Of a stretch of 64,000 nt of DNA, positions 14,736-30,014 are shown in pieces. Both the position numbers and the translations under genes were made by a program. The notes under the pieces were generated by a model. The model did no database searches, was not told the origin of the DNA, and saw only the letters and a list, made by a program, of their open reading frames with translations. Within the stretch, counting starts at the first letter, position 1, and each line of letters opens with the position of its first letter. The stretch is from Burkholderia sp. USMB20. GTDB taxonomy: Bacteria; Pseudomonadota; Gammaproteobacteria; Burkholderiales; Burkholderiaceae. Location: positions 868,001 to 932,000 of the forward strand of contig NZ_JTAN02000021.1 in NCBI RefSeq assembly GCF_000949135.2, in the 5' to 3' direction.

Positions 14736-14768
14736 AGTATAGGCTCTGTTGAACAAGGGTTCAACAGA
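14736..14768 (-). promoter_or_regulatory. Sigma70-type promoter overlapped by a 24-base TetR-type operator (aruH operon)
   Basis: Read on the minus strand, TTGAAC (14764-14759) is followed by a 17-base spacer and TATACT (14741-14736). A perfect inverted repeat, TCTGTTGAAC-N4-GTTCAACAGA, covers 14745-14768, that is the -35 and most of the spacer. Binding there would block RNA polymerase. The tetR gene is divergent and starts 108 bases away. Closely related sites with the same geometry lie at 22913-22942 and 29916-29945. Confidence 0.75.
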
Positions 14769-14815
14769 TTTCAATAATCCGGAAGCAAGGGTTTTCGCGG
14801 GTTCCATCGCTGTAA

Positions 14816-14845
14816 TTGAACAAGCGTCCGACACTCCCCTATAAT
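14816..14845 (+). promoter_or_regulatory. Putative promoter of the BetI-like tetR gene
   Basis: On the plus strand, TTGAAC (14816-14821), an 18-base spacer and a consensus TATAAT (14840-14845) lie 31 bases before the GTG start. The -35 includes the TTGAAC half-site of the operator described at 14745-14768 but no second half, so autoregulation might use the larger site nearby. Confidence 0.55.
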
Positions 14846-14876
14846 CGGTGCCATGACGATTCCGTAAGGTCACCCC

Positions 14877-15533
14877 GTGAAAAAGACTTCTGGCAGCGCA
14901 CCGGTTCAGACCCGCAGCCGCGGCATCCGAGAAACGCCCGCGGTGCGGCAGCAATCGATCATCGACGCGACGATGCGCTGCATCGCGCGCTACAGCTATT
15001 CGGAAACCACGATCGACCGCATCTGCGCGGAAGCGAAGGTGTCGCGCGGGCTGATCAACCATCACTTCCAGTCGAAAGACGAGCTGATGGCGCAGACCTA
15101 CAAGCGGCTCGCGGCCGACCTGCTCGACGTGTCGCGCGCGGCCGCCGCGAACGCGACGGGCCCCGAGGACAAGCTCGACGCGATCATCAAGGTGTGTTTC
15201 GCCGCGCCGGTGTTCGCGCCGAAGAACGTGAAGGTCTGGCTCGGCTTCTGGAGCGTCGCGCACAGCGATCCGGTGATCCGCAAGGCGCACAAGGAGCTGT
15301 ATGCCGGCTACCGGCAGGCGTTGAAGAAGCTGTTCGACCAGATCGCGGAAGTGCGCGGCGGCACCGTCGACAGCGAACTCGCTGCGCTGACGGTGACGGC
15401 GGTGATCGACGGCTTCTGGCTCGAACTCGCGCGCGACCCGACGTCGTTCACCGCGGAAGACGCGCTGACGAGCTGCCTGCGCGTCGTCGATTCGTTCCTG
15501 CCGCCGTCGAAGACGGCGCGCAAGCGCGCGTAA
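14877..15533 (+). CDS. BetI-like TetR-family repressor (local regulator of the catabolic island)
   Basis: A 218-residue TetR protein. The helix-turn-helix is at about residues 40-65, with the pattern YSETTIDRICAEAKVSRGLINHHFQSK. This is strongly BetI-like, as is the GFWSVAHSDPVIRKAHKELY segment in the ligand domain. It starts with GTG at 14877. An in-frame ATG does not occur nearby, and the N-terminal 20 residues are polar. It is divergent from the aruH/ABC operon and sits between that operon and the aruI/pot operon. I infer that it binds the GTTGAAC-N4-RTTYARCA sites at 14745, 22913, 29925 and 29995. Its effector may be a CoA thioester or guanidino/quaternary amine intermediate, but nothing in the sequence proves this. 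Confidence 0.85.
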   Translation: MKKTSGSAPVQTRSRGIRETPAVRQQSIIDATMRCIARYSYSETTIDRICAEAKVSRGLINHHFQSKDELMAQTYKRLAADLLDVSRAAAANATGPEDKLDAIIKVCFAAPVFAPKNVKVWLGFWSVAHSDPVIRKAHKELYAGYRQALKKLFDQIAEVRGGTVDSELAALTVTAVIDGFWLELARDPTSFTAEDALTSCLRVVDSFLPPSKTARKRA

Positions 15534-15585
15534 CGCACACAACGCGCCGCGCCGGCAAGCCGGCGCACTCGCGCCGCAACCGGCA

Positions 15586-15618
15586 CGACGGCCTCGCATT
15601 GCGAGGCCGTCGCATTTT
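15586..15618 (+). terminator. Hairpin terminator between convergent tetR and aruI
   Basis: CGACGGCCTCGCA and TGCGAGGCCGTCG form a 13-base inverted repeat around a single T (so a loop of about 5), followed by CATTTT on the plus strand. It lies 53 bases after the tetR stop. The short T-run favours termination of tetR. The stem could also protect the opposing aruI transcript. Confidence 0.6.
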
Positions 15619-17225
15619 CAGCCCGCGCGAATCTCGATCAGGTACGGCGCGTCGTGCGCGGCCGCTTCGCCGAGCGCACCGGCCAGCGACGCACCCTCTT
15701 CGACGCGCTGCGCGCCCCATCCATACGCGCGCGCGAGCGCGACGAAATCGGGCGTATGCAGATCCACGCCGACCGGCTCGACGCCGCCGTCGACCATCGC
15801 ACGCTTGATCTCTCCGTAACCGCCGTTGTTCAGCAGTACGACGATTACGCGCGCGCGATGCTGCACCGCGGTGCCGAGTTCGGCGAGCGTGTACTGGAAC
15901 CCGCCGTCGCCGGCGAGGCAGACCACCGGCCGCGATGCATCGCCGAGGCTCGCGCCGACCGCGGCCGGCAGCCCGTAGCCGAGCGAGCCGAAGCCGACCG
16001 ACGCGTTGAACCAGCTGCGCGGACGCGACGCCGCGAAGCCGACGTTGCCCGCATAGACGATCCGCGTCGAATCGCCGACCAGCGCCGCATCGGGCAGCGC
16101 GTCGCGCACGCTGTCGAGCAGCGCGAGATCGCGCCGCATTTCGTCGTTCAGTTCCTGCCGCGCGGCCAAACGGCACGTCGCCGCGCGCTCGACGCCATCG
16201 CCGCGGCCTTCGCTGTGCGCCCGCGCATCGGCCGGCCATACGCGCCGCAGCGCGCGCAGCGTTTCGCCGACGTCGCCGAGCAGCGGCAGCGCGGGCACCG
16301 CGTTGCGGCACAGCTGCTGCGGATCGATGTCGATCCGCACGAGCGGCGCGGGCATCGAGAAGCTGCGCGTCGCATACAGGTCGTAATCGGTCGGGCCGAG
16401 CTCGGTGCCGAGCGCGACGATCAGGTCGCTGTCGCGCATCAGCGCGCGCACCGCGTCGCTCGACGCCGACCACGACACGCCGAGCGGATGCGCGCTCGGC
16501 AGCACGCCGCGCCCGTTGATCGTCATCACGACCGGCGCGTCGAGCGTCTCCGCGAGCCAGCGCACGTCGGCGGCCGCGTCGAGCGCGCCGCCGCCCGCGA
16601 GAATCACTGGTGCGCGCGCGGCGGCGGCCTTCGCACGCAGTGCGTCGATGCCGTCGGCCGATGCGGGGCCGGGCGTGATGCGCGGCGGCACGGTCGGCAC
16701 CGACGGCAACGTGTCGGCCGGCGCCGCGAGCACGTCGAGCGGAATCTGCAGATGCACGGGGCGCGGCCGGCCGCCCGAGAACACCGCGAACGCGCGTGCG
16801 ATCGCCTGCGGCAGCGCGTCGGCGCGCGGCACCGTGTAGCTGAACGCGGCGATGTTCTCCGCGAACGCATGCTGGTCCGGCAGCTCGTGCAGATGGCCGT
16901 TGCCGGAGCCGATGTCGCCGGACGCGTTGACGCTCGAAATCACCAGCATCGGAATCGAATCCGCATACGCCTGCGCCATCGACGTCGCGATGTTCGTCAT
17001 CCCGGGGCCGGTGATCACGAAACACACGCCGGGCTTGCCGGTCGCGCGCGCATAGCCGTCCGCCATGAAGCCGAGGCCCTGCTCGTGGCGTGCGCTCACG
17101 TGGCGCAGCGCGCTGCCGGCGAGCCCGCGGTACAGCTCGATCGTATGCACGCCGGGAATGCCGAACACCGTGTCGACGCCGTAGGCGGCAAGCAGGTCGA
17201 CCAGGTACATGCCAACTGTTTTCAT
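15618..17225 (-). CDS. aruI: Thiamine-diphosphate decarboxylase, AruI-like (2-ketoarginine decarboxylase)
   Basis: A 535-residue acetolactate-synthase-fold enzyme with three domains: N-terminal TPP-pyrimidine, middle, and C-terminal TPP-diphosphate. The catalytic Glu48 is in SARHEQGLGFMADGYAR. The metal/TPP motif is CLAGDGGFQYT followed about 30 residues later by NNGGYGEI. The segments FGIPGVHTIELYRGL, CFVITGPGMTNIATSMAQAYADSIPMLVISS (read in two parts) and IDIDPQQLCRN closely match Pseudomonas AruI as I recall it. AruI decarboxylates 5-guanidino-2-oxopentanoate to 4-guanidinobutyraldehyde. It is the last gene of the minus-strand potA-to-aruI operon. The ATG at 17225 is preceded by a weak ribosome-binding site. 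Confidence 0.75.
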   Translation of the reverse strand: MKTVGMYLVDLLAAYGVDTVFGIPGVHTIELYRGLAGSALRHVSARHEQGLGFMADGYARATGKPGVCFVITGPGMTNIATSMAQAYADSIPMLVISSVNASGDIGSGNGHLHELPDQHAFAENIAAFSYTVPRADALPQAIARAFAVFSGGRPRPVHLQIPLDVLAAPADTLPSVPTVPPRITPGPASADGIDALRAKAAAARAPVILAGGGALDAAADVRWLAETLDAPVVMTINGRGVLPSAHPLGVSWSASSDAVRALMRDSDLIVALGTELGPTDYDLYATRSFSMPAPLVRIDIDPQQLCRNAVPALPLLGDVGETLRALRRVWPADARAHSEGRGDGVERAATCRLAARQELNDEMRRDLALLDSVRDALPDAALVGDSTRIVYAGNVGFAASRPRSWFNASVGFGSLGYGLPAAVGASLGDASRPVVCLAGDGGFQYTLAELGTAVQHRARVIVVLLNNGGYGEIKRAMVDGGVEPVGVDLHTPDFVALARAYGWGAQRVEEGASLAGALGEAAAHDAPYLIEIRAG

Positions 17226-17280: not shown

Positions 17281-17919
17281 TCAATGCGCGAGCCCCGGCA
17301 ACAGTTCGCGCACGCCCTGCGCGAGCATCTGGAACGCGATCGCGGTCAGCACGATGCCCGACAGCCGCTCGACCAGCGTCCTGCCGATCTCGCCGAGCCG
17401 CCGGCACCACGACGCCGAGCACGCATACGTGAGCCCGATCACGCCCGCGTGCAGCACGCACGCCGCGCTCAGCGCCAGCAGGTCGGCCGGCGTATGAAAG
17501 CGCGTCGCGGTCGTGATCACGAGCGACATCACCGCGCTGCCGATCGACAGCGGGAAGATCAGCGGCACCGCGATGTAGCTGCGCCATTGCGCATATTCGA
17601 GCCGCGTGTCGCCGCCGCTGCGCTCGTCGTTCGCCGTGCCGCGCATCATCGGGATCGACCACAGGCACAGCACGAGGCCGCCCGTCAGCGTCAGCGCGCC
17701 GAGCGTGAGGCCGAGCATGCGCAGCAGGAACTGGCCGCCCCACACCGCGCCGATCATCAGCGCCGCGATCCACGCGAACAGCCTGAACGCGATCTGCCGC
17801 TGTGTCACGTCGGGAAAATGCCCGGTGACGGCCGCATACATCGGGATCGCGACGGGCGGACAGAACAGCGTCACGAGCCCGGTCAGGAACAGCAGCACGT
17901 CGCTCGACGTCAGGGTCAT
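17281..17919 (-). CDS. MarC-family inner-membrane protein
   Basis: A 212-residue MarC/UPF0056 protein with six hydrophobic segments. Diagnostic stretches are GLVTLFCPPVAIPMYAAVTG, PLIFPLSIGSAVMSLVITTAT and the C-terminal RLSGIVLTAIAFQMLAQGV. MarC proteins resemble amino-acid exporters, but no transport substrate is established for this branch. It lies between the quinone reductase and aruI in the same minus-strand operon (gaps 61 and 55 bases). A safety-valve export role for an intermediate would be speculation. Confidence 0.88.
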   Translation of the reverse strand: MTLTSSDVLLFLTGLVTLFCPPVAIPMYAAVTGHFPDVTQRQIAFRLFAWIAALMIGAVWGGQFLLRMLGLTLGALTLTGGLVLCLWSIPMMRGTANDERSGGDTRLEYAQWRSYIAVPLIFPLSIGSAVMSLVITTATRFHTPADLLALSAACVLHAGVIGLTYACSASWCRRLGEIGRTLVERLSGIVLTAIAFQMLAQGVRELLPGLAH

Positions 17920-17980: not shown

Positions 17981-18709
17981 TCAATCCTGCGTGGCGTCCT
18001 GCGGCGCGCGTTCGCGCGGCCGCATGTCGCCGTCGAAATCGTCGAGCGTCGGAAACGCCATCGGTTCGTGCCGGTCGAGCTCTGCGAGATAGGCGTCGTA
18101 GCGTTCGAGCACGGCCGCGCGCTCCGCGTCGCCGATGTACGGCACGTGATAGCCGACGAACGACGGCAGCACGTCGAAGCCTGCGTAGCCGAGCGTGCCG
18201 CGCAACACGTGGCGCAGCATCAGGTCCATTTCGCCGTGCACGCCGTCCGCACCGAACATGTAGTCGCGGCCGCCGCACGTATAGGCAAGCAGCGCGCGCT
18301 TGCCGCGCATCCCGCCGCGATCGTAGAAGCGCACGCCGCCGTACACCTTGCCCGACACGAGCACGCGGTCGATCCAGCCTTTCATGATCGCCGGCACCGA
18401 GCACCAGAACAGCGGAAAGCTCAGGATCAGCAGGTCGCACGCGGCGAGCTTGTCGAGTTCCGCGGCGATGTCCGGCGCGATCGCGTGCGCGGCGACGTTC
18501 TCGCGCTGCTCCAGCGCGTAGACGAGATAGTCGGGGTTCTTGCGCACGCCGAAATCGGCCGCGCTCGCGACCGGATTCCACTGCATCGCGTACAGGTCGG
18601 ACACCGTCACGGTATGCCCCTGCGCTTCGAGCGTGCTCACCGCGCGGTGCAGCATCGACGTCGTGAACGACTGCGGTTCGGGATGGGCGTGAACGATCAG
18701 GACTTTCAT
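17981..18709 (-). CDS. Flavodoxin-fold NAD(P)H:quinone oxidoreductase
   Basis: A 242-residue protein of the NQO/KefF/MdaB family. The FMN-binding N-terminus reads MKVLIVHAHPEPQSFTTSM. The conserved DLLILSFPLFWCSVPAIMKGWIDRVL and LLAYTCGGRDYMFG segments form the isoalloxazine and NAD(P)H pockets. It reduces quinones or related electrophiles in the cytosol. Its place between the PotC-like permease and the MarC gene (41 and 61 base gaps) puts it in the pot-aruI operon, but a pathway role is not evident. Confidence 0.85.
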   Translation of the reverse strand: MKVLIVHAHPEPQSFTTSMLHRAVSTLEAQGHTVTVSDLYAMQWNPVASAADFGVRKNPDYLVYALEQRENVAAHAIAPDIAAELDKLAACDLLILSFPLFWCSVPAIMKGWIDRVLVSGKVYGGVRFYDRGGMRGKRALLAYTCGGRDYMFGADGVHGEMDLMLRHVLRGTLGYAGFDVLPSFVGYHVPYIGDAERAAVLERYDAYLAELDRHEPMAFPTLDDFDGDMRPRERAPQDATQD

Positions 18710-18750: not shown

Positions 18751-19545
18751 TCAGACGGACCCGGCCGCACGCTTGCGCAGCAGCGACAGGCCGATCGCGA
18801 CGCAGGTCGCGACGAGCAAAAGCGTGGATACCGACGCGATCGCCGGATCGACGTTCTCGCGCATTCCGTCCCACATGCGGCGCGGCAGCGTATAGACGTT
18901 CCGGCTCGAGATGAACAGCGTGACGACGAGCTCGTCCCACGACAGGATGAACGCGAACACCGCGGCCGACAGCACGCCCGGCCGGATCGACGGCAGGATC
19001 ACGTAGCGCAGCGTCTGCGCGACGTTCGCACCGAGGCTGCGCGATGCCTGCTCGATGCGCAGCCCGACGGTCGCGAGCGACGCCGAAACCGCCACCACGA
19101 CGTAAGGCACCGACAGCACGACGTGCGACAGGATCGCGGCGGGGTAGCTGTCGAGCATCCCGAGTTCGCCCCACAGCCGGTAGAACGCGAGCGCCGACAC
19201 GATCGGCGGCACGATCAGCGGGAACAGGATCACGCCGCGCACGAACTCGCCGCGCCGCGACGCGACTTTCCACAGCCCGATCGCGCACAGCGTGCCGAGC
19301 CCGACCGAGATCGCCGACGACACCAGCGCGATCAGCCCGCTCTGCAGGAAGCTCGACACCCAGCCGTCGTCGTCGAGCAGCACGCGGTAGTGCCGCAGCG
19401 ACAGCGCGCCGTCCGGCATCGACAGGTAGTCGCTCGGCGTCAGCGAGACGGGCACCGACACGAGCAGCGGCAGCATCAGGAACAGGATCGCGGCCCACGC
19501 GATGCCGACCACGAGCGCGCGTCCTGCGGTCATTCGGGTGTTCAT
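18751..19545 (-). CDS. PotC-like ABC transporter permease
   Basis: A 264-residue inner-membrane permease with six hydrophobic segments. The EAA-type loop is IEQASRSLGANVAQTLRYVILPSIRPGV, followed by FILSWDELVVTLFI, a hallmark of PotC/PotI spermidine-putrescine permeases. It pairs with the PotB-like permease just upstream (20-base gap), the binding protein and the ATPase. A CCTCC-type complement (GGAGGTTCCG) precedes the ATG at 19545. Confidence 0.9.
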   Translation of the reverse strand: MNTRMTAGRALVVGIAWAAILFLMLPLLVSVPVSLTPSDYLSMPDGALSLRHYRVLLDDDGWVSSFLQSGLIALVSSAISVGLGTLCAIGLWKVASRRGEFVRGVILFPLIVPPIVSALAFYRLWGELGMLDSYPAAILSHVVLSVPYVVVAVSASLATVGLRIEQASRSLGANVAQTLRYVILPSIRPGVLSAAVFAFILSWDELVVTLFISSRNVYTLPRRMWDGMRENVDPAIASVSTLLLVATCVAIGLSLLRKRAAGSV

Positions 19546-19565: not shown

Positions 19566-20441
19566 TCAGCGCGCGCCGAACAGCTCGCGCAGGTCGACGA
19601 AGCGCGCGAGCAGCGCGAGCGCGGCCAGGATCGACGCCAGCAGCAGCGACGCGAGCGCCGCCCCGCTGCCCCAGTTCACGAGCTGCAGGATCTGCGTGCT
19701 GATGTATTCGGCGATCATCACGGTGCGGCCGCCGCCGAGTATCACCGGCGTCACGTAGAAGCCGAGCGAGAAGATGAACACGAGGATCGCCGCGCCGACG
19801 ATGCCCGGTCGCGTCTGCGGGAAATACACCTTGCGGAACGTGACGAACGCGCCCGCGCCGAGCCCTTGCGAGGCGCGCGCGAGCTGCGGATCGATGCCCT
19901 TCATGTTCGCGTACAGCGGCAGCACCGCGTACGGAATCATGAAATGGATCATCCCGATCACGACGCCGACCTCGTTTCGCATCAGCGGCAGCGGCGCGTC
20001 GATCAGCCCGATGCGCAGCAGCAGCGTGTTGACGAGCCCCTGCTCGCCGAGCAGGAACAGCCACGAGAACGCGCGCACCAGCACCGACGCCCAGAACGGC
20101 ACGAGCAGCCCGAACATCAGCGCCATCCGTTGCCGCGGGCCGACGTGCGCCATCGCATACGCAATCGCATAGCCGAGCGCGACCGAACACACGGTCGTGA
20201 CCGCGCACACGCGCAGCGTGGTCCACAGCACGCGATGCACGCCATGATTGCCGAGCAGCCGCGCATAGTTGTGCAGGCCCGGCTCCGGCACCGTGAAGCC
20301 GAGCCACAGCACGCGCACGAGCGGATACACGTACAGCACGATCAGCACCGCGAGCAGCGGCACGACGAGCAGCCAGTAACGATCGGCCTTCGTACGGCCG
20401 AGCGGCACCGCGCCCGCGACGGGAGTAGACAGGGTATTCAT
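19566..20441 (-). CDS. PotB-like ABC transporter permease
   Basis: A 291-residue permease with six hydrophobic segments. It has VPFWASVLVRAFSWLFLLGEQGLVNTLLL and the EAA loop ASQGLGAGAFVTFRKVYFPQTRPGI, both typical of PotB/PotH. It forms the channel with the 18751-19545 product. It follows the binding-protein gene by 22 bases. Cargo of this subfamily includes polyamines, quaternary amines and some acidic or guanidino compounds, so the true substrate is open. Confidence 0.9.
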   Translation of the reverse strand: MNTLSTPVAGAVPLGRTKADRYWLLVVPLLAVLIVLYVYPLVRVLWLGFTVPEPGLHNYARLLGNHGVHRVLWTTLRVCAVTTVCSVALGYAIAYAMAHVGPRQRMALMFGLLVPFWASVLVRAFSWLFLLGEQGLVNTLLLRIGLIDAPLPLMRNEVGVVIGMIHFMIPYAVLPLYANMKGIDPQLARASQGLGAGAFVTFRKVYFPQTRPGIVGAAILVFIFSLGFYVTPVILGGGRTVMIAEYISTQILQLVNWGSGAALASLLLASILAALALLARFVDLRELFGAR

Positions 20442-20463: not shown

Positions 20464-21573
20464 TCAGGACGACATCAGGTCGGTGTACTGCGCGAGCGTC
20501 GCTTCGTAGTGCTGCGCCCACCACTCGGGATTCACCTTGCACTGCTTTGCCCAGTTCTCCGGCGTGCCCGGGTTGTCGGCGCGTAGCGCCTGCGGCACCG
20601 CGGCGGTCGCGGCCGGCGTCACCGGCCCGTTGCCGAGCAGCGACAGCAGGCGCACCTGCGGCTCGACGCCCTGCACGAACTTGATGAACTGCCAGACGGC
20701 ATCGCCCGACGGATTGTTCTTCGGCACGCCCCACACGTCGCACGACGCGAGCCCCTGCTCCCACGTATAGCGGAACCGGCCATTGCTCTCGCGCTGGATC
20801 ACGTTCGCGCGCGTATGCCAGATGCACGCCATGCTGACTTCGCCGTTGCGCAGCAACTGCAGGCTGTCCGCGCCCGAATCCCACAGCAGCACGTTCGAGC
20901 GCAGTTCCTTCAGCTTTTTCAGCGCGCGCGGCACGTCGATCGGATAGACCTTGTCCTTGTCGACGCCGTCGGCCATCAGCGCGGCTTCGAGCGCGCCGCC
21001 CATCCATTTCCACAGCCCGCGCTTGCCCGGAAACTTGCCGACGTTCCAGAAATCGGCCCAGTTCTTCGGCGGATTCGCGCCGAACTTGCGCGCGTCGTAG
21101 ACGAGCACGTAGCTCAGCAGGTACGACGGCACGCCGAAGTCCGATGCGAGCCCCGGCAGCGTGTTGCGGCCGACGACCGAATAGTCGATCGGCCGCAGGA
21201 AGCCCTGCTTGCCGAGCTTGATCGCCGCGAAGCCGTCGAGATCCATCACGTCCCAGATCACGTTCCGGTTCTCGACCATCGCCTTGATCTTGCCGTCCTC
21301 CGGCGACGAGTCGTAGCCCATCCGGATGCCGCTCGCCTTCGTGAACGGGTCCATGTACGCGGAGCGGAACGCCGAACGCGCTTCGCCGCCCCACGCGCTG
21401 AGCACGATTTCCTTCGGGTTCGACGCGAGTGCGTCCTTCGCGCCGAGCGACAGCAGCGTCGGCGCGATGCCGGCCGCCGCGCACAATCGCAGAAAATCGC
21501 GGCGGCGCTGCGACGTCGCCGGTTGAAGTTCGCGTGCTTGGTCGAGCAGGTCCTGCAGATGGCGGTTCGTCAT
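20464..21573 (-). CDS. PotD-like periplasmic binding protein with Tat-type signal
   Basis: A 369-residue family 1 spermidine/putrescine-type binding protein. The N-terminus has QRRRDFLRLCAAAGIAPTLL followed by ALA, which is a twin-arginine leader rather than a plain Sec signal. Mature motifs include VLSAWGGEARSAFRSAYMDPF, WDVMDLDG and CIWHTRANVIQRE. The ATG at 21573 has GGAGGAGACACC upstream. A longer in-frame start at 21627 lacks this. It is the second gene of the potA-to-aruI operon, and its ligand is unknown. Confidence 0.88.
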   Translation of the reverse strand: MTNRHLQDLLDQARELQPATSQRRRDFLRLCAAAGIAPTLLSLGAKDALASNPKEIVLSAWGGEARSAFRSAYMDPFTKASGIRMGYDSSPEDGKIKAMVENRNVIWDVMDLDGFAAIKLGKQGFLRPIDYSVVGRNTLPGLASDFGVPSYLLSYVLVYDARKFGANPPKNWADFWNVGKFPGKRGLWKWMGGALEAALMADGVDKDKVYPIDVPRALKKLKELRSNVLLWDSGADSLQLLRNGEVSMACIWHTRANVIQRESNGRFRYTWEQGLASCDVWGVPKNNPSGDAVWQFIKFVQGVEPQVRLLSLLGNGPVTPAATAAVPQALRADNPGTPENWAKQCKVNPEWWAQHYEATLAQYTDLMSS

Positions 21574-21719
21574 GGTGTCTCCTCCAGGCTGGTCAGCGCC
21601 CGCACGCGTCTCGTCGTTTTCGGGCATCGGTGAATCGGTGAATCAGTGAATCCGTCAGTCGGTGAGTCGGCGGCGACGGCAGCTTGTGCCGCGTCGTGCG
21701 GGATGCAACGTGCGCCGCG

Positions 21720-22883
21720 TCAGTCGGCCGCGATCCGGCATGTCGCGTCGCGCTCCCACTGCACGAACACGTCCATGCCGCCGCGCGGCGACGCGAGCCC
21801 GCGCCATGCGGGCACGTCCGCCGTCACGCAGCCGAGCGCCGGCGTCTCGATCTCGAAGCGGTACGACGAACCGAAATAGCTCCAGTGGCGAATGCGGCCC
21901 GCAACTTCGTTGTGGGCGCCGCCGCACGACGTCGCCGACACCGCGACCTTCTCAGGGCGCAGCGCGAACAGCAGCGGCTCGTCGGGCCGCGCACCGCACG
22001 CGGGCGCGACGAAGCGCGCATCGCCGACGCGGTAATGCGTCGTCGAAGCATCGCCGCCGAGCGCGACACCTTCGATGAAATTGCTCTTGCCGAGAAAGTC
22101 CGCGACGAAGCGGTTGGCCGGCTGCTCGTAGAGCCCGTCCGGCGTGCCGATCTGTTCGAGCCGGCCGTCGCGCATGATCGCGACCCGGTCCGACATCGAC
22201 AGCGCTTCCTCCTGGTCGTGCGTGACGAACAGGAACGTCGCGCCGAGCCGCTCGTGCAGCGCCTTCAGCTCGACCTGCACCTCGCCGCGCAGCTTGCGGT
22301 CGAGCGCGCCGAGCGGCTCGTCGAGCAGCACGAGATCGGGATCGAACACCAGCGCGCGCGCGATCGCGACGCGCTGCTGCTGGCCACCCGACAACTGGCG
22401 CGGCAGGCGATCGGCGAGATGGCCGAGCCGCACGAGATCGAGCGCGGCCTTCACGCGCTTCACCGCGTCGGGCCCTTTCTGCTTGCGCACCATCAGCGGA
22501 TACGCGACGTTCTGCTCGACCGTCATGTGCGGAAACAGCGCATAGCCCTGGAACACCATCCCGAAGTTGCGCTTCTCGGGCGGCAGCGCGACGATGCTGC
22601 GGCCGCCGACGCGCAGGTCGCCGCTGCTCGGATGCTCGAAGCCCGCGACGATCGTCAGCAGCGTCGTCTTGCCCGAACCCGACGGCCCGAGGATCGTCAG
22701 GAATTCGCCGCGCGGAATGTCGATCGTCGTTTCGCGCAGCGCATGCACGCTGCCGTAGCGCTTCGACACGCGATCGATCTGCAGGCCCGCGCCGCTCGCC
22801 GCATGCTGCGCCGCCGCGCGTGCCGCATGCGCCCCGGTCCTGCCGTCCTCCACGCCTGCCGACGTCTCCATCACCGCGCTCAT
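21720..22883 (-). CDS. PotA-like ABC transporter ATP-binding protein
   Basis: A 387-residue ABC ATPase. Walker A is GPSGSGKTT, the Q-loop is in GMVFQGYALFPHM, the signature is LSGGQQQRVAIARAL, Walker B is LVLLDEPLGALDRK, and the H-loop is FVTHDQEEAL. A C-terminal TOBE-type regulatory domain follows from about residue 290. It is the head of the seven-gene minus-strand operon potA - potD - potB - potC - quinone reductase - marC - aruI. The ATG at 22883 follows CCAGGAGACACACG. An operator-like site lies 30-40 bases upstream, shared with the divergent crotonase gene. Confidence 0.92.
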   Translation of the reverse strand: MSAVMETSAGVEDGRTGAHAARAAAQHAASGAGLQIDRVSKRYGSVHALRETTIDIPRGEFLTILGPSGSGKTTLLTIVAGFEHPSSGDLRVGGRSIVALPPEKRNFGMVFQGYALFPHMTVEQNVAYPLMVRKQKGPDAVKRVKAALDLVRLGHLADRLPRQLSGGQQQRVAIARALVFDPDLVLLDEPLGALDRKLRGEVQVELKALHERLGATFLFVTHDQEEALSMSDRVAIMRDGRLEQIGTPDGLYEQPANRFVADFLGKSNFIEGVALGGDASTTHYRVGDARFVAPACGARPDEPLLFALRPEKVAVSATSCGGAHNEVAGRIRHWSYFGSSYRFEIETPALGCVTADVPAWRGLASPRGGMDVFVQWERDATCRIAAD

Positions 22884-22912: not shown

Positions 22913-22942
22913 GTTGAACGTTCATTTAACAGAACTTATACT
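22913..22942 (+). promoter_or_regulatory. Promoter with TetR-type operator between potA and the crotonase gene
   Basis: On the plus strand, TTGAAC (22914-22919), a 17-base spacer and TATACT (22937-22942) match the aruH promoter exactly in both hexamers and spacing. The overlapping repeat reads GTTGAAC-N4-ATTTAACAGA (22913-22933). It differs from the 14745-14768 operator at two arm positions. Binding would control the crotonase operon and, by position, also potA transcription in the other direction. Confidence 0.72.
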
Positions 22943-23029: not shown

Positions 23030-23818
23030 ATGAGCATCGAGGACATTCGAATCGAACGGCACGACGGCGTCGTGACCCTTCGCCTGAACCGCCCGGCGAA
23101 ACGCAATTCGCTCGCGCGGCCGCATCTCGACTTTCTTCGCGAGACGCTCGACGCGCTCGCGAACGATCCGGCCGTGCGCTGCGTCGTACTGACCGGCACC
23201 GGCAGCGCGTTCTGTGCGGGCGCGGACGTCGACGAATGGGCCGAGGCCGAGCGCAACGGCGAACTCGACACCTACGGCTGGACCGAGCGTGCGCACCGTT
23301 TCGTGCAGACGCTCGCGGCATTTCCGCGTCCGACGATCGCCGCGCTGAACGGCTCGACGGTCGGCGCCGGCACCGACATCGGCTTCGCGTGCGACTTCCG
23401 CATCGCGAGCACCGCTGCGACGCTGCGCTGCGGGTATACGGGCATGGGCTACAGCCCCGACATGGGCGGAAGCTGGTTCCTGCCGCGCATCGCGCGCCCC
23501 GACGTCGCACGCCGCTTCATCTTTCTGAACGAACGCTGGAACGCGCAGGATGCGCTCGCCGCGGGGCTCGTGTCCGAAGTCGTCGACGCCGACGATTTCG
23601 CGACGCACGTCGCCGCGTTCGCCGCGCGTCTGGCGCAAGGGCCGAGCGTCGCGTTCGGCCACACCAAGGCGCTGCTCGCGCAATCGCTCACGCACACCCT
23701 CGCCGAGCAACTGCGCGGCGAGCTGGCGGCCGGCGTCGCGTGCGGTCACAGCGAGGACGGCCAGGAAGCGCTTCGCGCGTCGGTCGAAGGTCGCGCACCT
23801 CATTTTGTCGGGAGATGA
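23030..23818 (+). CDS. Crotonase-superfamily enzyme (PaaG/isomerase-type active site)
   Basis: A 262-residue crotonase. The oxyanion-hole stretch SAFCAGADVDEW and NGSTVGAGTDIGFACD are present. The first catalytic Glu of hydratases is Asp (GAGTDIG). The second is absent, but the segment GYSPDMGGSWFLPR carries an Asp in the PDxGG-W-x-LP context used by PaaG-type isomerases. An isomerase or non-classical hydratase is therefore more likely than a standard enoyl-CoA hydratase. The ATG at 23030 follows CCAGGAG. It is the first gene of a plus-strand operon with the acyl-CoA dehydrogenase (3-base gap) and the acyl-CoA synthetase. Confidence 0.85.
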   Translation: MSIEDIRIERHDGVVTLRLNRPAKRNSLARPHLDFLRETLDALANDPAVRCVVLTGTGSAFCAGADVDEWAEAERNGELDTYGWTERAHRFVQTLAAFPRPTIAALNGSTVGAGTDIGFACDFRIASTAATLRCGYTGMGYSPDMGGSWFLPRIARPDVARRFIFLNERWNAQDALAAGLVSEVVDADDFATHVAAFAARLAQGPSVAFGHTKALLAQSLTHTLAEQLRGELAAGVACGHSEDGQEALRASVEGRAPHFVGR

Positions 23819-23821: not shown

Positions 23822-24979
23822 ATGGATTTTTCGCTGACCCAAGAGCAGGAAATGCTGGTGACGTCGCTGCGTCAGTTCGTCGAGAAGGAACTGCAGCCTC
23901 ATGAATTCGCGGTCGATCGCGCGGACGACGTGCCGCCCGAACTCGCCGACTCCATCCGCCGCAAGTCGCTCGAGCTCGGCTTCTATGCGTTCAACATGCC
24001 AGAGAGCGCCGGCGGCCCGGGGCTCGACTACGTGACGCAGGCGCTCGTCGAACGCGAGCTCGGCCGCACGAGCTGGGCGCTGCACGTGTTCGTCGCGCGG
24101 CCGAGCAAGATCCTGATGGCGTGCAAGGGCGACCAGGTCGAGCGCTACCTGAAGCCGGCCGTGCGCGGCGAGCGCGTCGACTGCTTCGCGCTGACCGAGC
24201 CGGGCGCCGGCTCCGACGCGATGGGCATCCGCACGCGCGCGGTGCGCGACGGTGACGACTACGTGATCAACGGCAGCAAGCACTTCATCAGTCATGCGGA
24301 CACGGCCGACTTCGTGATCCTGTTCGCCGTCACCGGCGAGGAGGAAGTGCGCGGCCAGAAGCGCAAGCGCGTGACCTGCTTCCTGATCGACAAGGACACG
24401 CCGGGCATGACCGTGCGGCGCGGCCCGCACTGCACGAGCCTGCGCGGCTATCACCAGTCGGAGATCTTCCTCTCCGACTGCCGCGTGAGCGCCGCGCAGA
24501 TCCTCGGCGAAGAGCATCGCGGCTTCGAGCTCGCGAACGACTGGCTGACCGCCGGCCGCGTGATGGTCGCCGCGAACAACATCGGCCGCGCGCAGCGCGC
24601 ATTCGAGATGGCCGCCGAATGGGCCGCGACGCGTCATCAGTTCGGCAAGCGCATCGGCGACTTCCAGGGCACGTCGTTCAAGCTCGCGGACATGCAGACC
24701 GAGATCCGCGCGGCGGAACTCGTCACGCTGTACACCGCGCAGAAACTCGACCAGGGCACGATGACCGACGGCGACGCCGCACTCGCGAAGCTGCTCGCGA
24801 CCGAAACGCTCGGCCGCGTGACCGATCACGCGGTGCAGATCTACGGCGGCATGGGGCTGATGGACGAACTGCCGATCGAGCGCTTCTGGCGCGATGCGCG
24901 CATCGAGCGCATCTGGGAAGGCACGTCCGAGATCCAGCGCCATATCCTGTCCAAGGAAATCCTCCGACGCTACAGCTGA
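23822..24979 (+). CDS. Acyl-CoA dehydrogenase
   Basis: A 385-residue FAD-dependent dehydrogenase of normal length. Motifs are CFALTEPGAGSDAMGIRTRA (flavin/substrate region), FGKRIGDFQGTSFKLADM, VQIYGGMGLMDELPIERFWRD, and a C-terminal IWEGTSEIQRHILSKEIL carrying the usual helix. The enzyme forms a trans-2-enoyl-CoA and passes electrons to ETF. Here it sits between the crotonase and an ADP-forming acyl-CoA synthetase. This resembles the gene set used for gamma-butyrobetaine/carnitine-type acids, so the acyl group may be a short, polar, N-substituted butyrate. Specificity cannot be read from the sequence alone. Confidence 0.92.
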   Translation: MDFSLTQEQEMLVTSLRQFVEKELQPHEFAVDRADDVPPELADSIRRKSLELGFYAFNMPESAGGPGLDYVTQALVERELGRTSWALHVFVARPSKILMACKGDQVERYLKPAVRGERVDCFALTEPGAGSDAMGIRTRAVRDGDDYVINGSKHFISHADTADFVILFAVTGEEEVRGQKRKRVTCFLIDKDTPGMTVRRGPHCTSLRGYHQSEIFLSDCRVSAAQILGEEHRGFELANDWLTAGRVMVAANNIGRAQRAFEMAAEWAATRHQFGKRIGDFQGTSFKLADMQTEIRAAELVTLYTAQKLDQGTMTDGDAALAKLLATETLGRVTDHAVQIYGGMGLMDELPIERFWRDARIERIWEGTSEIQRHILSKEILRRYS

Positions 24980-25029: not shown

Positions 25030-27159
25030 ATGACTTCCTCTCCCGCAGTCAGGGATCGCCGCGCGGCCGCCGCGGCCAATCTGCGCCGGCTGCTCGACCC
25101 GGCCAGCATCGCGTTCGTCGGCGGACGCGGCATCGCGGGCGCCGTGCAGCGCTGTCGCGATTACGGCTATGCCGGCGATATCCGGCTCGTCAATCCGAAT
25201 CATGCGGAGATCGACGGCGTGCGCTGCCATGCGAGCGTCGCCGACCTGCCCGCCGCGCCGGACGCCGTGTTCGTCGCGGTGCCCGCGCGCCAGGCGATCG
25301 ACGTCGTGCGCGCGCTCGCCGCACGCGGCGCCGGCGGCGCGATCGTCTATGCGTCGGGTTTCTCCGAAACGGGCGCCGACGGCGCCGCGCTGCAGCTGGC
25401 GCTGGTCGACGCGGCCGGCGACATGGCCGTGCTCGGCCCGAATTGCTACGGCCTGATCAACGGGCTGAACGGCAGCGCGCTGTGGCCGGTCGCGCATTGC
25501 GCGCCGCGCGTCGAATCGGGCGTCGCGGTGATCACGCAGAGCGGCAACCTCGCGTACAACCTGTCGATGAGCGCGCGCTCGGTGCCGTTCGCGTATCTCG
25601 CGAGCGTCGGCAACCAGGCGTCGGTCGATATCGCGCGCCTCGTCGATGCGTTCGTCGACGATCCGCGCATCCGCGCGATCGGCGTGCATCTCGAAGGGCT
25701 GAAGGACGTGCGCGCGTTCAGCGAGGCCGCGGCCCGCGCGCTCGCGCGTGGCGTGCCGATCGTCGCGCTGAAGAGCGGCACGTCGACGCTCGGCGCGCAG
25801 CTCGCGATGAGCCACACGAGTTCGCTCGCGGGCTCGGACGCGCTGTACGACGCGCTGTTCCGGCGGCTCGGCGTGATTCGCGTGAAGGACCCGGTCGGCC
25901 TCGTCGAGACGTTGAAGCTGCTCGCGATCGCAGGCGTGCCCGAGCGCCGCACGCTCGCCGCGCTGGCGACGTCCGGCGGCGATGCGGGGCTCGTCGCCGA
26001 TCTCGGCGAAGCGCGCGGCATCGTTTTTCCGCCGGTCGGCGATGCCGGCCGCGACGCGCTCGGCAACGTGCTGCCCGCGTACGCGACGATCGCGAACCCG
26101 CTCGACTTCACGACCACGCCGTGGGGCGCCCCCGACAAGATGCGCGCGTGCTGCGACGCGCTGCTCGCCGATCGCCCGGGCGCCGCCGCGATGATCCTCG
26201 ACTATCCGCAGGAAGCGACCGGCGAGCGGCCGCTGTGCGATATCGCCGCGGACGCGTTCGCGGCGTCCGCACGCCAGCACGGCGTGGTCGGCGCGGTGAT
26301 TTCGGTGTTTCCGGACCTGACGCCGCCCGATCGTGCGGCCCGCATGGCCGCCGCCGGCATCGCGCCGCTGCAGGGGCTGGCCGACGGGATCGCTGCGATC
26401 GGCGCGGCGATGACCTACGGCGACACGCGCCGCCGCGTGCTCGACGCCGACGCGCTGAACGCGCTGCCGGTACTGCGCGCGGGCGACGGCGGCCACGGCA
26501 CCGCGACGCTGCACGACGAATGGGCGAGCAAGCGGATGCTGGCCGCGCACGGGCTCGACGTGCCGCCGGCCGAATGCGTCGCGCCCGCCGATGCGCCGGC
26601 CGCCGCGCAGCGGCTCGGCTTTCCGGTCTGCGTGAAAGTGGTCAGCGATCGCCTGCCGCACAAGACCGAGGCCGGCGCGGTCGCGCTGAAGCTCGGCTCG
26701 CCCGAAGCCGTCGCCGCGGCCGTCGTGCGAATGACCGAACAGGTCGCGCGTTATGCGCCGGATGTGCACGTCGAACGCATTCTCGTCGAGAAGATGGCCG
26801 ACGCGCCGCTGCTCGAGCTGATCGTCGGCGTGAAGCGCGAGCCGAATTTCGGTCTCGCGCTGGTGCTCGGCACCGGCGGCGTGCTGGTCGAACTGATCCG
26901 CGACACCGCGACGCTGCTGCTGCCGGTGCGCGAAAGCGACGTGCGCGACGCACTGCTCGGGTTGAAGCTCGGCCCGCTGCTGACCGGCTATCGCGGGCGG
27001 CCGAAGGCCGATCTCGATGCGGTCGTCGCGAATGTGATGGCGATCGCACGCTTCGCACAGGCGCATGCCGACACGCTCGTCGAACTCGACGTCAATCCGC
27101 TGCTGGTGATGGAACGCGGCGCGGTGGCCGTCGATGCGCTGGTGAGGCTCGACGCGTGA
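25030..27159 (+). CDS. ADP-forming acyl-CoA synthetase (acetate-CoA ligase family)
   Basis: A 709-residue fused NDP-forming synthetase. A CoA-binding domain spans residues about 18-115 (LLDPASIAFVGGRG). Succinyl-CoA-ligase-like domains span about 130-460, with the phosphohistidine segment MSHTSSLAGSDALYDALFRR. An ATP-grasp domain spans about 485-700 (CVKVVSDRLPHKTEAGAVAL and VLGTGGVLVELIRD). It activates a carboxylic acid to its CoA thioester using ATP, giving ADP and phosphate. It follows the dehydrogenase by 50 bases, so it probably makes the substrate for that enzyme. The ATG at 25030 follows AAAGGA. Confidence 0.9.
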   Translation: MTSSPAVRDRRAAAAANLRRLLDPASIAFVGGRGIAGAVQRCRDYGYAGDIRLVNPNHAEIDGVRCHASVADLPAAPDAVFVAVPARQAIDVVRALAARGAGGAIVYASGFSETGADGAALQLALVDAAGDMAVLGPNCYGLINGLNGSALWPVAHCAPRVESGVAVITQSGNLAYNLSMSARSVPFAYLASVGNQASVDIARLVDAFVDDPRIRAIGVHLEGLKDVRAFSEAAARALARGVPIVALKSGTSTLGAQLAMSHTSSLAGSDALYDALFRRLGVIRVKDPVGLVETLKLLAIAGVPERRTLAALATSGGDAGLVADLGEARGIVFPPVGDAGRDALGNVLPAYATIANPLDFTTTPWGAPDKMRACCDALLADRPGAAAMILDYPQEATGERPLCDIAADAFAASARQHGVVGAVISVFPDLTPPDRAARMAAAGIAPLQGLADGIAAIGAAMTYGDTRRRVLDADALNALPVLRAGDGGHGTATLHDEWASKRMLAAHGLDVPPAECVAPADAPAAAQRLGFPVCVKVVSDRLPHKTEAGAVALKLGSPEAVAAAVVRMTEQVARYAPDVHVERILVEKMADAPLLELIVGVKREPNFGLALVLGTGGVLVELIRDTATLLLPVRESDVRDALLGLKLGPLLTGYRGRPKADLDAVVANVMAIARFAQAHADTLVELDVNPLLVMERGAVAVDALVRLDA

Positions 27160-27180
27160 TGCCGGCCTGAAAAGCGGCGG

Positions 27181-27256: not shown

Positions 27257-28648
27257 TCAGATCACTTTGCCAGGATTCAGAAGTCCGAACGGATCGAATG
27301 CATGCTTGAGATGTCGCATCGCGGCGATCTCGGCGTCGCTGCGCGAACAACCGAGCCAGTCGCGCTTGTAGCGGCCAATCCCGTGCTCGGCCGACACCGA
27401 GCCGCCCGCATCGCGCACGAGCGGATACAACACCGCGTCGACGTCGTGCGCGCCCTCGCCCGTCGCATACGGCGCGGAAACGCACACATGCAGGTTGCTG
27501 TCGCCGAGGTGGCCGAAGAAGAACACGTGCGCCCCGGGCCAGCGCGCGTTCCGCGCGCGCTCGCACGCGTCGATGAACTTCTCCGTCGCGCGCGGCGGAA
27601 TGCCGACGTCGAAATTGACGAGACCAGGGAGATCGTCGATCGCGAGCCCTTCGCGCACCGTCCAGAATGCCTGCGCATCGGCCGCGGTCTGCGCGAGCGC
27701 CGCATCGTCGATCAGCCCGCGTTCGAGCCAGTCGGCCAGCACCGCTTCGAACCGTTCGGCCGTCTGCACGGCATCGCCGCTCGCGCATTCGATCAGCACC
27801 TTGACGCCGCCGTCCGCCGGCAGCGGCGCGCGCATGCCGGGCGTATGCGCGCACACGTAGCCGTAGAACGCCGGCCACATCGCCTCGAAGCTCAGCAAGT
27901 CCGCGCATGCGGCACGCGCGTCGCGCAGCAGCGCGAGCGCCGCCGCCGTATCGCGCACCGCGCACAACGCGGTGGACGGCGCGGCGAGCCGCGGATGGAG
28001 CCGCAGCACGACGCGCGTGATGACGCCGAGCGTGCCTTCACTGCCGACGAAAATCTGCCGCAGGTCGTAACCCGCGTTGTTCTTCAGCATCTTGTTCAGC
28101 GAACTCAGCACGGTGCCGTCGGCCAGCACGACCTCGAGGCCGAGTACCTGCTCGCGCGTCGTACCGTAGCGGATCACGCGATTGCCGCCCGCATTGGTCG
28201 CGACGTTGCCGCCGATCTGGCACGAGCCGCGCGCGCCGAGATCGATGCCGAGTGCGAATCCCGCGTCGTCCGCTGCCTGCTGCAGCTCCTGCAGCGTCGT
28301 GCCGGCCCACGCGGTGACGGTGGCCGCGTCCGCATCGATCTCGACGATCCCCTTCATGCGTTCGAGCGACAGCACGACGTCCTGCGCACCGGGCCCGGCG
28401 CCTGCCGCGAGCCCCGTCATTCCGCCCTGCGGCACGACCGTCTGACGATACGCGGTGCAGATCGCGAGCGCGCGGCTCACGTCGTCGACGCTGCGCGGCC
28501 GCACCAACGCGCGCGGCCGCGGGCCGGCCGCTTCGCCGTAGTTCGTGAAATGACGCGCGCCGATCGCGTCGCCCACGCCGATGCAATCGGCGCCGAGTGC
28601 GTCGCGCAATGCGGCGACGACGTCGCCGTTCAAGGAAGGATCGGACAT
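27257..28648 (-). CDS. FAD-linked 2-hydroxyacid oxidase/dehydrogenase (GlcD/DLD-type)
   Basis: A 463-residue protein of the FAD_binding_4 plus FAD-oxidase C-terminal family. The FAD motif is VVPQGGMTGLAAGAG. Further segments are GIDLGARGSCQIGGNVATNAGG, SLNKMLKNNAGYDLRQIFVGSEGTLG (in parts) and the C-terminal SAEHGIGRYKRDW. Relatives oxidise D-lactate, glycolate or D-2-hydroxyglutarate at the membrane. It follows the porin gene by 43 bases on the minus strand, behind the 29916-29945 promoter/operator. It is therefore probably part of the TetR regulon. The substrate is unknown. Confidence 0.88.
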   Translation of the reverse strand: MSDPSLNGDVVAALRDALGADCIGVGDAIGARHFTNYGEAAGPRPRALVRPRSVDDVSRALAICTAYRQTVVPQGGMTGLAAGAGPGAQDVVLSLERMKGIVEIDADAATVTAWAGTTLQELQQAADDAGFALGIDLGARGSCQIGGNVATNAGGNRVIRYGTTREQVLGLEVVLADGTVLSSLNKMLKNNAGYDLRQIFVGSEGTLGVITRVVLRLHPRLAAPSTALCAVRDTAAALALLRDARAACADLLSFEAMWPAFYGYVCAHTPGMRAPLPADGGVKVLIECASGDAVQTAERFEAVLADWLERGLIDDAALAQTAADAQAFWTVREGLAIDDLPGLVNFDVGIPPRATEKFIDACERARNARWPGAHVFFFGHLGDSNLHVCVSAPYATGEGAHDVDAVLYPLVRDAGGSVSAEHGIGRYKRDWLGCSRSDAEIAAMRHLKHAFDPFGLLNPGKVI

Positions 28649-28691
28649 GATCGACGGGGCCGGCCGAACCCGGCCCGGGAACGAGTGAGGA

Positions 28692-29822
28692 TCAGAAATT
28701 GTGCCGCATGCCGATGCGCGCGGCGGCCTGCGTGCGGCTCGTCGACGGCGTGAAGCTGTAGCCGATCACCGCGTCGACGCCGTTCGATGCACGCATCCAG
28801 TCGACCGCCGCATACACGTCGGTGCGCTTCGACAGCGCGTAATGCGCGCCGAGCGCGACTTCGTGCCAGTGATGACCTTCGAACGTCGTGTACTGATAGC
28901 CGGCGACGAGCGACAGCGGCACGGTCGCCTGGTACAGGCCGCCCGCTTCGTACACGCGCATCGTCGACGATTGTCCGTAGCCCTTGAACGTCGTGTTGCT
29001 GAAGTCCGCGTTCAGCGTCAGCTTGCCGAACGTGTACGACGCGCCGACACCGAAGATCGATTGCGAATCGATCGAGAACGGCGTCGAATCGTGCAGGTCG
29101 GTGACGGCGCCCGTCGCCGGGTCGACCGTCGCGACCGTCTGCCCGAGCATCGTCCGCACGCCCATCTGCGCATACGGATCGAGCGCGGCGAGCCTGCGCG
29201 GCGCGTTGAGCCGCGTGTAGTTGCCGCCCGCCGAGAAATCGCCGTGCGTGTAGCTCGCGCCCACGCTCCATGCGCTCCCGTCATGGAAGCTGCCCGCGTC
29301 GTTGCTGAACGAATACATGCCGCCGACCACGAGCCCGTGGAAGCTGTTGCTGACGAATTTCACCGCGTTCTGCAGCCGGCCCCCGCTCTGGCGGTCGAAA
29401 TCGCCGAGATGCACGCCGTAGCCGCTGCCGAACGCGCTGACGTTGTACGCGGCCGTGAAGTCGAATGCGAAGTCGTACTGATTACCGAACGTCAGCGTGC
29501 CCCAGTCGTTGCCGAGCCCGACGTACGCCTGCCGCCCGAACATCGCGCCACCCTGGTTCAGCCTGCCGGTGCCGAGCCGGAAGCCGCTCTCGAGCTTGAA
29601 CACCGCCTTGTTGCCGCCGCCGAGATCCTCGGTGCCCATCAGGCCGAAGCGGTTGCCGTACGACACGCCGTCGTCGAACAGGTACGCATGCGCGCCGCCC
29701 GTGTTGTTCACGTAAGTGATGCCGCCGTCGATGATCCCGTACAGCGACACGCTGCTCTGGGCATGGGCGTAGCCGTGGACCATCACCGACATCATGCCGG
29801 CCAGCAGGAAGCGCTTCTTCAT
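28692..29822 (-). CDS. Gram-negative porin (OmpC-like, Burkholderia type)
   Basis: A 376-residue outer-membrane porin with a 21-residue Sec signal (MKKRFLLAGMMSVMVHGYAHA, cleaved before QSSVSLYG). The mature start SVSLYGIIDGGITYV, the KLESGFRLGTGRLN segment, GRQAYVGLGNDWGTLTFG and the final AARIGMRHNF with C-terminal Phe are all diagnostic of Burkholderia porins. It likely admits the substrate of the catabolic island through the outer membrane, because its promoter carries the same operator as the aruH and crotonase promoters. Confidence 0.95.
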   Translation of the reverse strand: MKKRFLLAGMMSVMVHGYAHAQSSVSLYGIIDGGITYVNNTGGAHAYLFDDGVSYGNRFGLMGTEDLGGGNKAVFKLESGFRLGTGRLNQGGAMFGRQAYVGLGNDWGTLTFGNQYDFAFDFTAAYNVSAFGSGYGVHLGDFDRQSGGRLQNAVKFVSNSFHGLVVGGMYSFSNDAGSFHDGSAWSVGASYTHGDFSAGGNYTRLNAPRRLAALDPYAQMGVRTMLGQTVATVDPATGAVTDLHDSTPFSIDSQSIFGVGASYTFGKLTLNADFSNTTFKGYGQSSTMRVYEAGGLYQATVPLSLVAGYQYTTFEGHHWHEVALGAHYALSKRTDVYAAVDWMRASNGVDAVIGYSFTPSTSRTQAAARIGMRHNF

Positions 29823-29915
29823 TTTCGGTGTCTCCGGTTGCCGCGCACGGCGGCTCGATTTTCGTTGTGCGTGAACGCCGCCCGCCTGCTTCGCTTCGGC
29901 ACCGCGGCGCTGGCG

Positions 29916-29945
29916 AGTATAGGTTTTGCTGAATGAATGTTCAAT
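29916..29945 (-). promoter_or_regulatory. Porin promoter with TetR-type operator
   Basis: On the minus strand, TTGAAC (29944-29939), a 17-base spacer and TATACT (29921-29916) repeat the geometry of the aruH and crotonase promoters. The overlapping repeat reads ATTGAAC-N4-ATTCAGCAAA (29945-29925). It is imperfect but aligned to the same positions. Confidence 0.68.
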
Positions 29946-29994
29946 CGATTGACGAGAGCGGATGCACCGGTGTTTACACCCATCGGCGATTTCA

Positions 29995-30014
29995 TTATTG
30001 AAAAAACGTTCAAC
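29995..30014. promoter_or_regulatory. Fourth operator-like repeat, upstream of the thioesterase gene
   Basis: Read on the minus strand it is GTTGAAC-N4-TTTCAATAAT, the same half-site spacing as the three promoter operators. It lies about 70 bases before the thioesterase start. A matching -35/-10 pair for the plus strand is weak (TTGAAA with CATAAC, spacer 15). The regulatory call therefore rests on the repeat. Confidence 0.5.

Follow-up and report, generated by a model that had tools for sequence, protein, structure and literature searches.

A TetR-type regulator within a catabolic gene cluster

The window analysed here, a stretch of 64,000 nucleotides of Burkholderia sp. USMB20 (contig NZ_JTAN02000021.1, positions 868,001 to 932,000, forward strand), carries a gene for a TetR-family regulator (tetR) in a cluster of 21 genes, tetR included, that spans 9126-32205, and the inverted repeat TTGAAC-N4-GTTCAA recurs in three divergent intergenic regions of this cluster (Table 1). 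We propose that the regulator controls its neighbours through these repeats. Its N-terminal domain matches Pfam TetR_N with 54 bits (cut-off, 24), but both BetI cut-offs of NCBIfam are missed (125 versus 201.3 bits for TIGR03384 and 114.7 versus 118 bits for NF001978). The regulator probably works like BetI although it is not classed as BetI. The nearest TetRs among the named records listed are those of Burkholderia sp. Nafp2/4-1b and B. anthina (97%), followed by others, including those of B. lata and B. cepacia.

Judged by strand and spacing, the genes would form operons that start at four operator-like sites. Leftward of site 1 lie the genes for an amino-acid ATP-binding cassette (ABC) transporter, an aminotransferase and a deacylase, with tetR running divergently. 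Site 2 is followed leftward by a PotABCD-type transporter and then by an oxidoreductase, a MarC-like protein and AruI, and rightward by a crotonase, an acyl-coenzyme A (acyl-CoA) dehydrogenase and a synthetase. Site 3 faces the porin and a GlcD-like oxidase, and site 4 faces the thioesterase and the aldehyde dehydrogenase. The original prediction, which was made from the letters of the sequence, had described a previously unlinked regulon of more than 15 genes. We count 21 genes with tetR, one of which, the flavin adenine dinucleotide (FAD)-linked oxidase gene, is found in just 8 of the 16 full Burkholderia loci. All predicted targets lie directly around tetR, which makes this a local regulon and links no distant genes. 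What had been called the aruH operon does contain an AruH-like aminotransferase, but it begins with the amino-acid ABC transporter, and AruH is named by class only: among the 25 matches listed of 101, no NCBIfam cut-off is reached, and the protein is a class I aminotransferase.

The closest solved relative of the cationic amino acid-type binding protein is the arginine-binding protein 3tql. For the receptor of the PotA-type transporter, the nearest structures include 9d57, 6dgv (a gamma-aminobutyric acid sensor precursor), 4eq7 (named polyamine) and 6hly (agropine). The thioesterase is related to the thioesterase portion of fused carnitine 3-dehydrogenases, and the aldehyde dehydrogenase scores 616.3 bits against the PuuC model (cut-off, 850). 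In 4 of the 16 full Burkholderia loci (L037, L043, L044 and L046), about 1.8 kb of extra DNA lies between the MarC-like and oxidoreductase genes. Near the cluster, the minus strand also encodes a CheX-domain protein (4004-4990) and a protein with Hpt, histidine-kinase ATPase, HAMP and four-helix sensor domains (6319-8727).

Table 1. Genes, promoters and operator-like sites of the tetR cluster (positions in the window)
Feature	Position	Strand	Evidence or remark
AstE/aspartoacylase-family deacylase, last gene of the site 1 operon	9126-10136	-	Pfam AstE_AspA_cat, 85 bits
Class I/II aminotransferase, AruH-like	10168-11361	-	Pfam Aminotran_1_2, 234 bits; start codon at 11361 chosen by us
Amino-acid ABC permease	11414-12109	-	Pfam BPD_transp_1
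Amino-acid ABC permease, HisQ/ArtQ-like	12171-12887	-	NCBIfam
Periplasmic binding protein, cationic amino acid type	12936-13733	-	TIGR01096, 217.2 bits, below cut-off of 256.35; start codon chosen by us
ABC ATPase, HisP-like, first gene after site 1	13843-14649	-	Profile search
Operator-like site 1b, degenerate	14705-14720	.	TTGAATGGCCGACCAA; immediately 3' of the first -10
Promoter TTGAAC-N17-TATACT of ABC/aminotransferase operon	14736-14764	-	Exact pattern match
Operator site 1	14745-14768, core 14749-14764	.	Perfect palindrome, 10-base arms TCTGTTGAAC/GTTCAACAGA, read directly
tetR promoter TTGAAC-N18-TATAAT with half operator (14816-14831)	14816-14845	+	Close variant of the other four
TetR-family regulator, BetI-type C-terminal domain	14877-15533	+	Pfam TetR_N, TetR_C_6
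AruI, 5-guanidino-2-oxopentanoate decarboxylase	15618-17225	-	NF005712, 738.7 bits, cut-off 500
MarC/YchE-like membrane protein	17281-17919	-	Profile search
Flavodoxin-fold NAD(P)H oxidoreductase	17981-18709	-	Pfam Flavodoxin_2, 163 bits
ABC permease, PotC-like	18751-19545	-	Profile search
ABC permease, PotB-like	19566-20441	-	Profile search
Binding protein of PotA-type transporter	20464-21627	-	Pfam SBP_bac_8
ABC ATPase, PotA-like	21720-22883	-	Profile search
Operator site 2	22914-22929	.	Two mismatches; imperfect
Promoter TTGAAC-N17-TATACT of crotonase operon	22914-22942	+	Exact pattern match
Crotonase/enoyl-CoA hydratase family	23030-23818	+	Profile search
Acyl-CoA dehydrogenase	23822-24979	+	Profile search
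ADP-forming-type acyl-CoA synthetase	25030-27159	+	Pfam ATP-grasp_5, Succ_CoA_lig, CoA_binding_2
GlcD-like FAD-linked oxidase after porin	27257-28648	-	Variable
Porin, first gene after site 3	28692-29822	-	Pfam Porin_4, 165 bits
Promoter TTGAAC-N17-TATACT of porin	29916-29944	-	Exact pattern match
Operator site 3	29929-29944	.	Two mismatches; imperfect
Operator site 4	29998-30013	.	One mismatch
Promoter TTGAAA-N17-TAACAT of thioesterase	29998-30026	+	Operator site 4 over its -35
4HBT-type thioesterase	30084-30689	+	Pfam 4HBT_2; NF005716 positions 339-494, 168.8 bits, cut-off 592
Aldehyde dehydrogenase, PuuC/KauB-like	30718-32205	+	PDB 4lih, 785 bits; 6b4r (KauB), 605 bits

Inverted repeats on the predicted target promoters

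It had been predicted that three promoters of the form TTGAAC-N17-TATACT carry an inverted repeat on the -35 element and spacer. Indeed, this exact pattern matched three times in 64 kb and in none of 100 dinucleotide-preserving shuffles, and TTGAAC-N4-GTTCAA overlies the -35 and the spacer at all three copies. The first repeat is a perfect palindrome, as had been noticed, and the fourth copy described before the thioesterase gene was also found, where it serves as the -35 of a further promoter with a 17-base spacer; the positions originally given were right to within a few bases. All four target promoters share one architecture, with 17-base spacing and the operator on the -35.

With GTTGAACNNNNRTTYARCA at up to two mismatches, six rows were obtained in the window (shuffle mean, 0.09; maximum, 1): 14747-14766, the perfect site, which matched on both strands, 22913-22931, 29927-29945, 29996-30014 and, weaker, 14703-14721. 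TTGAACNNNNGTTCAA, again at up to two mismatches, gave five sites, every one inside the three divergent intergenic regions (14749-14764 without mismatch, 29998-30013 with one, and 14816-14831, 22914-22929 and 29929-29944 with two each); the shuffle mean was 0.57, and five sites were reached in 0 of 100 shuffles. The four predicted sites were all found, but there are probably six operator-like sites in all, when the degenerate conserved copies at the tetR promoter and at 1b are added. All 27 loci examined agree with the window in the -35, the spacing and the -10 of the tetR promoter. Its TTGAAC half is conserved as the -35 in all 27 and the second half is degenerate; the whole site comes nearest to the consensus in L083 and L086 (two mismatches).

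Site 2 also lies just 3' of a tentative leftward promoter, TTGCGG-N17-TATAAG, the -35 of which differs in 5 of 16 Burkholderia loci. The thioesterase promoter, with TAACAT or TACCAT as the -10, was kept in the window and in every locus for which DNA of the porin-thioesterase region was available, 17 in all: 16 from Burkholderia and L064 (Paraburkholderia silviterrae). A similar stretch is present in L086, but there the porin is fragmentary and the thioesterase lies outside the compared DNA. TTTACA-N17-TATTGA was rejected as the thioesterase promoter, because its -10 is lost in L050 and L064.

Conservation together with TetR

Among 65 genus genomes, 21 encode a TetR ortholog (86-97% identity), with the next-best matches at about 30%; of 299 family genomes, 12 passed an E value of 1e-60, one of them outside the genus. 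AruI (85-95%) is present in 20 of the 65 genomes, all of them TetR carriers; other AruI matches have 54-56% identity. The 21st TetR carrier is an 82%-complete assembly in which tetR lies close to a contig end. The intergenic regions were compared between the window and 21 loci for site 1 and between the window and 16 loci for sites 2 to 4, the other five loci ending too early, and all 21 genes were compared in frame across 31 loci.

The original prediction had proposed, as a check, a search for the motif in front of the same genes wherever the TetR ortholog is encoded. The outcome agrees with the prediction in every Burkholderia locus covered: site 1 was found in 21/21 Burkholderia loci (without mismatch in 18, with one in 3), and sites 2, 3 and 4 were kept in 16/16; all covered sites have 0-3 mismatches. 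Sites 2 and 4 are each identical in 15 of the 16 loci, and site 3 reads TTGAATGAATGTTCAA in all 16, the window copy having one more mismatch. In sites 1 to 4, 10, 11, 11 and 12 of the 12 arm positions are invariant; the values for the other positions of the three regions are 101/230, 69/131 and 98/244. The linker is invariant at 0 of 4 positions in site 1 and at 4, 4 and 3 of 4 in sites 2, 3 and 4. All 22 sequences agree in the site 1 arm that lies off the -35; the three changes seen in the arms of this site affect the one that forms the -35, and the linker is variable. Site 1b has two to three mismatches to TTGAACNNNNGTTCAA in 21/21 Burkholderia loci. If up to one mismatch is allowed in the -10, site 1 carries TTGAAC-N17-TATACT in 18 of the 21 Burkholderia loci and in 6/6 species outside the genus; the exceptions are L048 and L049, which have TTGAAA-N17-TATGCT, and L050, without a match. 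The -10 elements are strongly conserved.

Relatives beyond the genus came mainly from a search of named records, which supplied 80 of 92 loci and finds a relative only if one of two query peptides is present. Orthologs of 78-88% identity occur in at least five Paraburkholderia species and in Caballeronia sordidicola, and sites 1 and 2 are kept in 6/6 of these species. The promoter spacing is maintained across the genera, and seven loci from six Paraburkholderia/Caballeronia species have a variant of site 1b in the corresponding position.

Some loci have lost genes of the cluster. L050, L064 and L086 are without pot genes, and site 2 is kept, facing the oxidoreductase gene with AruI beyond; the potA identities of 34-43% in loci without other pot genes belong to other ABC ATPases. 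In L086 (Paraburkholderia polaris), the first ABC genes are missing or remnants (a 46-residue permease piece), so that the aminotransferase is the first whole gene after site 1; this cluster is partly degraded, with fragments of the porin and deacylase, but tetR and the operators are kept. In L090 (20.7 kb compared), the arginine genes are missing; TetR, sites 1 and 2 and the MarC-like gene remain, together with the crotonase, dehydrogenase, synthetase, thioesterase and aldehyde dehydrogenase. Since the operators outlast the gene losses in these four loci, the sites appear to belong to the regulator, with the CoA module as its most constant partner. Close to the more distant TetRs of L092 (77%), L098 (44%) and L099 (46%), a synthetase (48%) and an acyl-CoA dehydrogenase (36-40%) are encoded, and a class III aminotransferase is present in L098 and L091. 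The contig of L091 (Paraburkholderia solitsugae) encodes, at a distance of about 26-28 kb from the ortholog, two additional TetRs of 66% and 41% identity; operator-like sites occur there too, together with the class III aminotransferase, a DUF3138 porin and a PotA-type transporter.

Since one of the two query peptides lies in the recognition-helix region, shared operators are expected among distant relatives. In the loci of TetRs with 77% identity and below (L092-L149), the site was found at up to one mismatch in 33 of 58, more than for any other of 180 half-site permutations (runner-up, 12; median, 0); the Mesorhizobium part contributes 25 of 28 loci (control mean, 0.30; best, 5). Many of the Mesorhizobium loci (L118-L148) have a GTTGTACGAACGTTCAAC-like and a GTTGAACGATCGTACAAC-like site about 12 kb apart, at about 2450 and 14400, and these pairs enclose TetR and ABC-transporter genes. 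A sharper motif, TTGAANNNNNNTTCAACA, gave 24 rows across 11 genomes, most sites being counted on both strands; 21 rows are 12 distinct sites in the cluster and 3 lie elsewhere, and the reversed control gave a single row.

Predicted repression and comparison with known systems

Taken together, it is likely, on sequence grounds, that a BetI-like TetR represses about 20 neighbouring genes for arginine-type uptake and catabolism via TTGAAC-N4-GTTCAA operators. The operators that the regulator would bind are at the same time the -35 and spacer of the target promoters, and the genes would be shut off from the three divergent intergenic regions, its own gene more weakly. At four promoters the operator lies over the -35 and spacer, so that a repressor bound there should keep RNA polymerase away. 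As site 2 lies just 3' of the tentative leftward promoter, a single dimer on it could act in both directions. Site 1b and the tetR half-site may permit graded or cooperative binding. Upon binding of a pathway metabolite to the C-terminal domain, the repressor would leave, and RNA polymerase would reach the -35 hexamers. AruI, the two receptors and the aldehyde dehydrogenase suggest an arginine-derived acid as the effector, and our first guesses are 4-guanidinobutyrate or 2-ketoarginine. However, since L090 keeps the CoA module and not the arginine genes, the effector is equally likely to be an intermediate closer to the acid or to its CoA ester.

Several observations weigh against this repression model. 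The contrast between arms and linker is confined to site 1, the linkers of sites 2 to 4 being nearly invariant, and the sites at the tetR promoter and at 1b are degenerate. L092, a metagenome bin with a 77% TetR, has no site at up to two mismatches within 2.5 kb, and most of the cluster is gone; it is possibly rewired or from a degraded cluster. The signal from distant relatives comes mostly from Mesorhizobium, one clade; the other loci reach 8/30 versus 7 for the best control (control mean, 0.36). At up to one mismatch, six genomes gave 7-11 matches per genome outside the cluster versus 1-7 in the reversed control. This looser search is too unspecific to find or exclude further targets, and a wide regulon was rejected as a claim, since matches outside the cluster are frequent at this level; a recurrent one, TCGAACGCAAGTTCAA (L068/L069), looks protein-coding by eye.

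A last observation of this kind bears on whether the repeats are bound by another regulator, such as another TetR-family protein of the same genome, with the local tetR acting elsewhere. Every one of the 65 genus genomes has at least two TetR-family matches to the regulator at E 0.001, and one such gene of genome G001 (25% identity) adjoins four sites with one to two mismatches to TTGAACNNNNGTTCAA within about 330 bases (L067, G001:C2:1696500-1698500, 209-540). However, the sites occur together with the TetR in all covered orthologs of the genus and in 6/6 species outside it, the tetR promoter itself carries a half operator in all 27 loci, and TTGAANNNNNNTTCAACA is almost confined to the cluster, and we hold this explanation to be improbable. 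Small chances are also given to an activator or dual regulator. Some activators bind near the -35; however, an operator over the -35 hexamer and spacer at four promoters is in a polymerase-blocking position, and BetI, the best-known relative, represses. That the recurrence reflects only constrained -35 and -10 elements with an incidental repeat is hardly credible. In its favour, TTGAAC looks like a -35 hexamer and conservation of the -10 elements is strong; against it, the site 1 arm that lies off the -35 never varies, all three changes being in its partner, and the arms of the first site in the window are 10 bases long.

The genes of the cluster would import arginine-like and probably omega-amino-acid-like compounds. 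Arginine would be transaminated and decarboxylated by the AruH-like enzyme and AruI, the resulting aldehyde would be oxidised by the KauB-like enzyme, and the acid would probably be carried on as a CoA thioester. A bolder proposal, which we regard as rather doubtful, is an undescribed arginine branch in which 4-guanidinobutyrate is converted to its CoA thioester, dehydrogenated and hydrated without loss of urea via guanidinobutyrase, TTGAAC-N4-GTTCAA marking a BetI-like subfamily that controls the CoA-linked degradation of omega-amino acids and guanidino acids across several proteobacterial orders. No guanidinobutyrase (GbuA) was found among the scanned cluster genes. Arginase-family genes (PF00491) lie elsewhere in 10/10 genomes searched (2-6 rows each), and therefore the pathway may still end in the ordinary way with a guanidinobutyrase.

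The predicted local TetR regulon is a clean instance of a well-known type of control that is well conserved in a group of Burkholderia and related bacteria, and the general understanding of TetR control is unchanged by it. A regulator without a known target gains a predicted operator, about 20 predicted target genes and a short list of effectors, and a pathway of the arginine transaminase type is placed next to a CoA-thioester module. The match of operator and repressor could help to identify and classify related catabolic clusters elsewhere among bacteria.

In the parts of the PubMed Central literature available to us (most subscription papers lie outside it), nothing was found among the papers listed on this TetR or on TetR control of aruH/aruI in Burkholderia, nor was a catabolic 4-guanidinobutyryl-CoA route; guanidinobutyryl-CoA appears there mostly for Streptomyces or its polyketides. 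PMC4349456 deals with a different TetR of B. xenovorans and another operator. In Sinorhizobium meliloti, according to excerpts of PMC7268258, AspC is 40% homologous to AruH, the AruI-like ilvB1 lies downstream, and the ureohydrolase SpeB2 acts on 4-guanidinobutanoate and related compounds; these excerpts mention neither a CoA module nor a TetR regulator. An AruH-like aminotransferase and AruI are likewise encoded in the cluster described here.

BetI of Escherichia coli is a choline-responsive TetR repressor of the bet genes. Like BetI, the regulator combines TetR_N with TetR_C_6, and a BetI gate promoter primer given in PMC7058928 contains AATTGATTGGACGTTCAATATAATG, which by our own count has two mismatches to TTGAAC-N4-GTTCAA. 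In contrast, the catabolic genes differ: no scanned neighbour of the regulator reaches a bet cut-off, and the aldehyde dehydrogenase scores 495.5 versus 593 (NF009725) and 487.8 versus 668.6 for betaine-aldehyde dehydrogenase.

The arginine transaminase (ATA) pathway of Pseudomonas aeruginosa involves AruH, AruI, KauB and GbuA. The cluster resembles it in having AruI, a class I aminotransferase and an aldehyde dehydrogenase close to KauB, but it has a CoA ligase, an acyl-CoA dehydrogenase, a crotonase and a thioesterase in place of the guanidinobutyrase. Moreover, the Pseudomonas arginine transaminase genes are under AruRS two-component control, whereas a tetR gene sits in the Burkholderia cluster.

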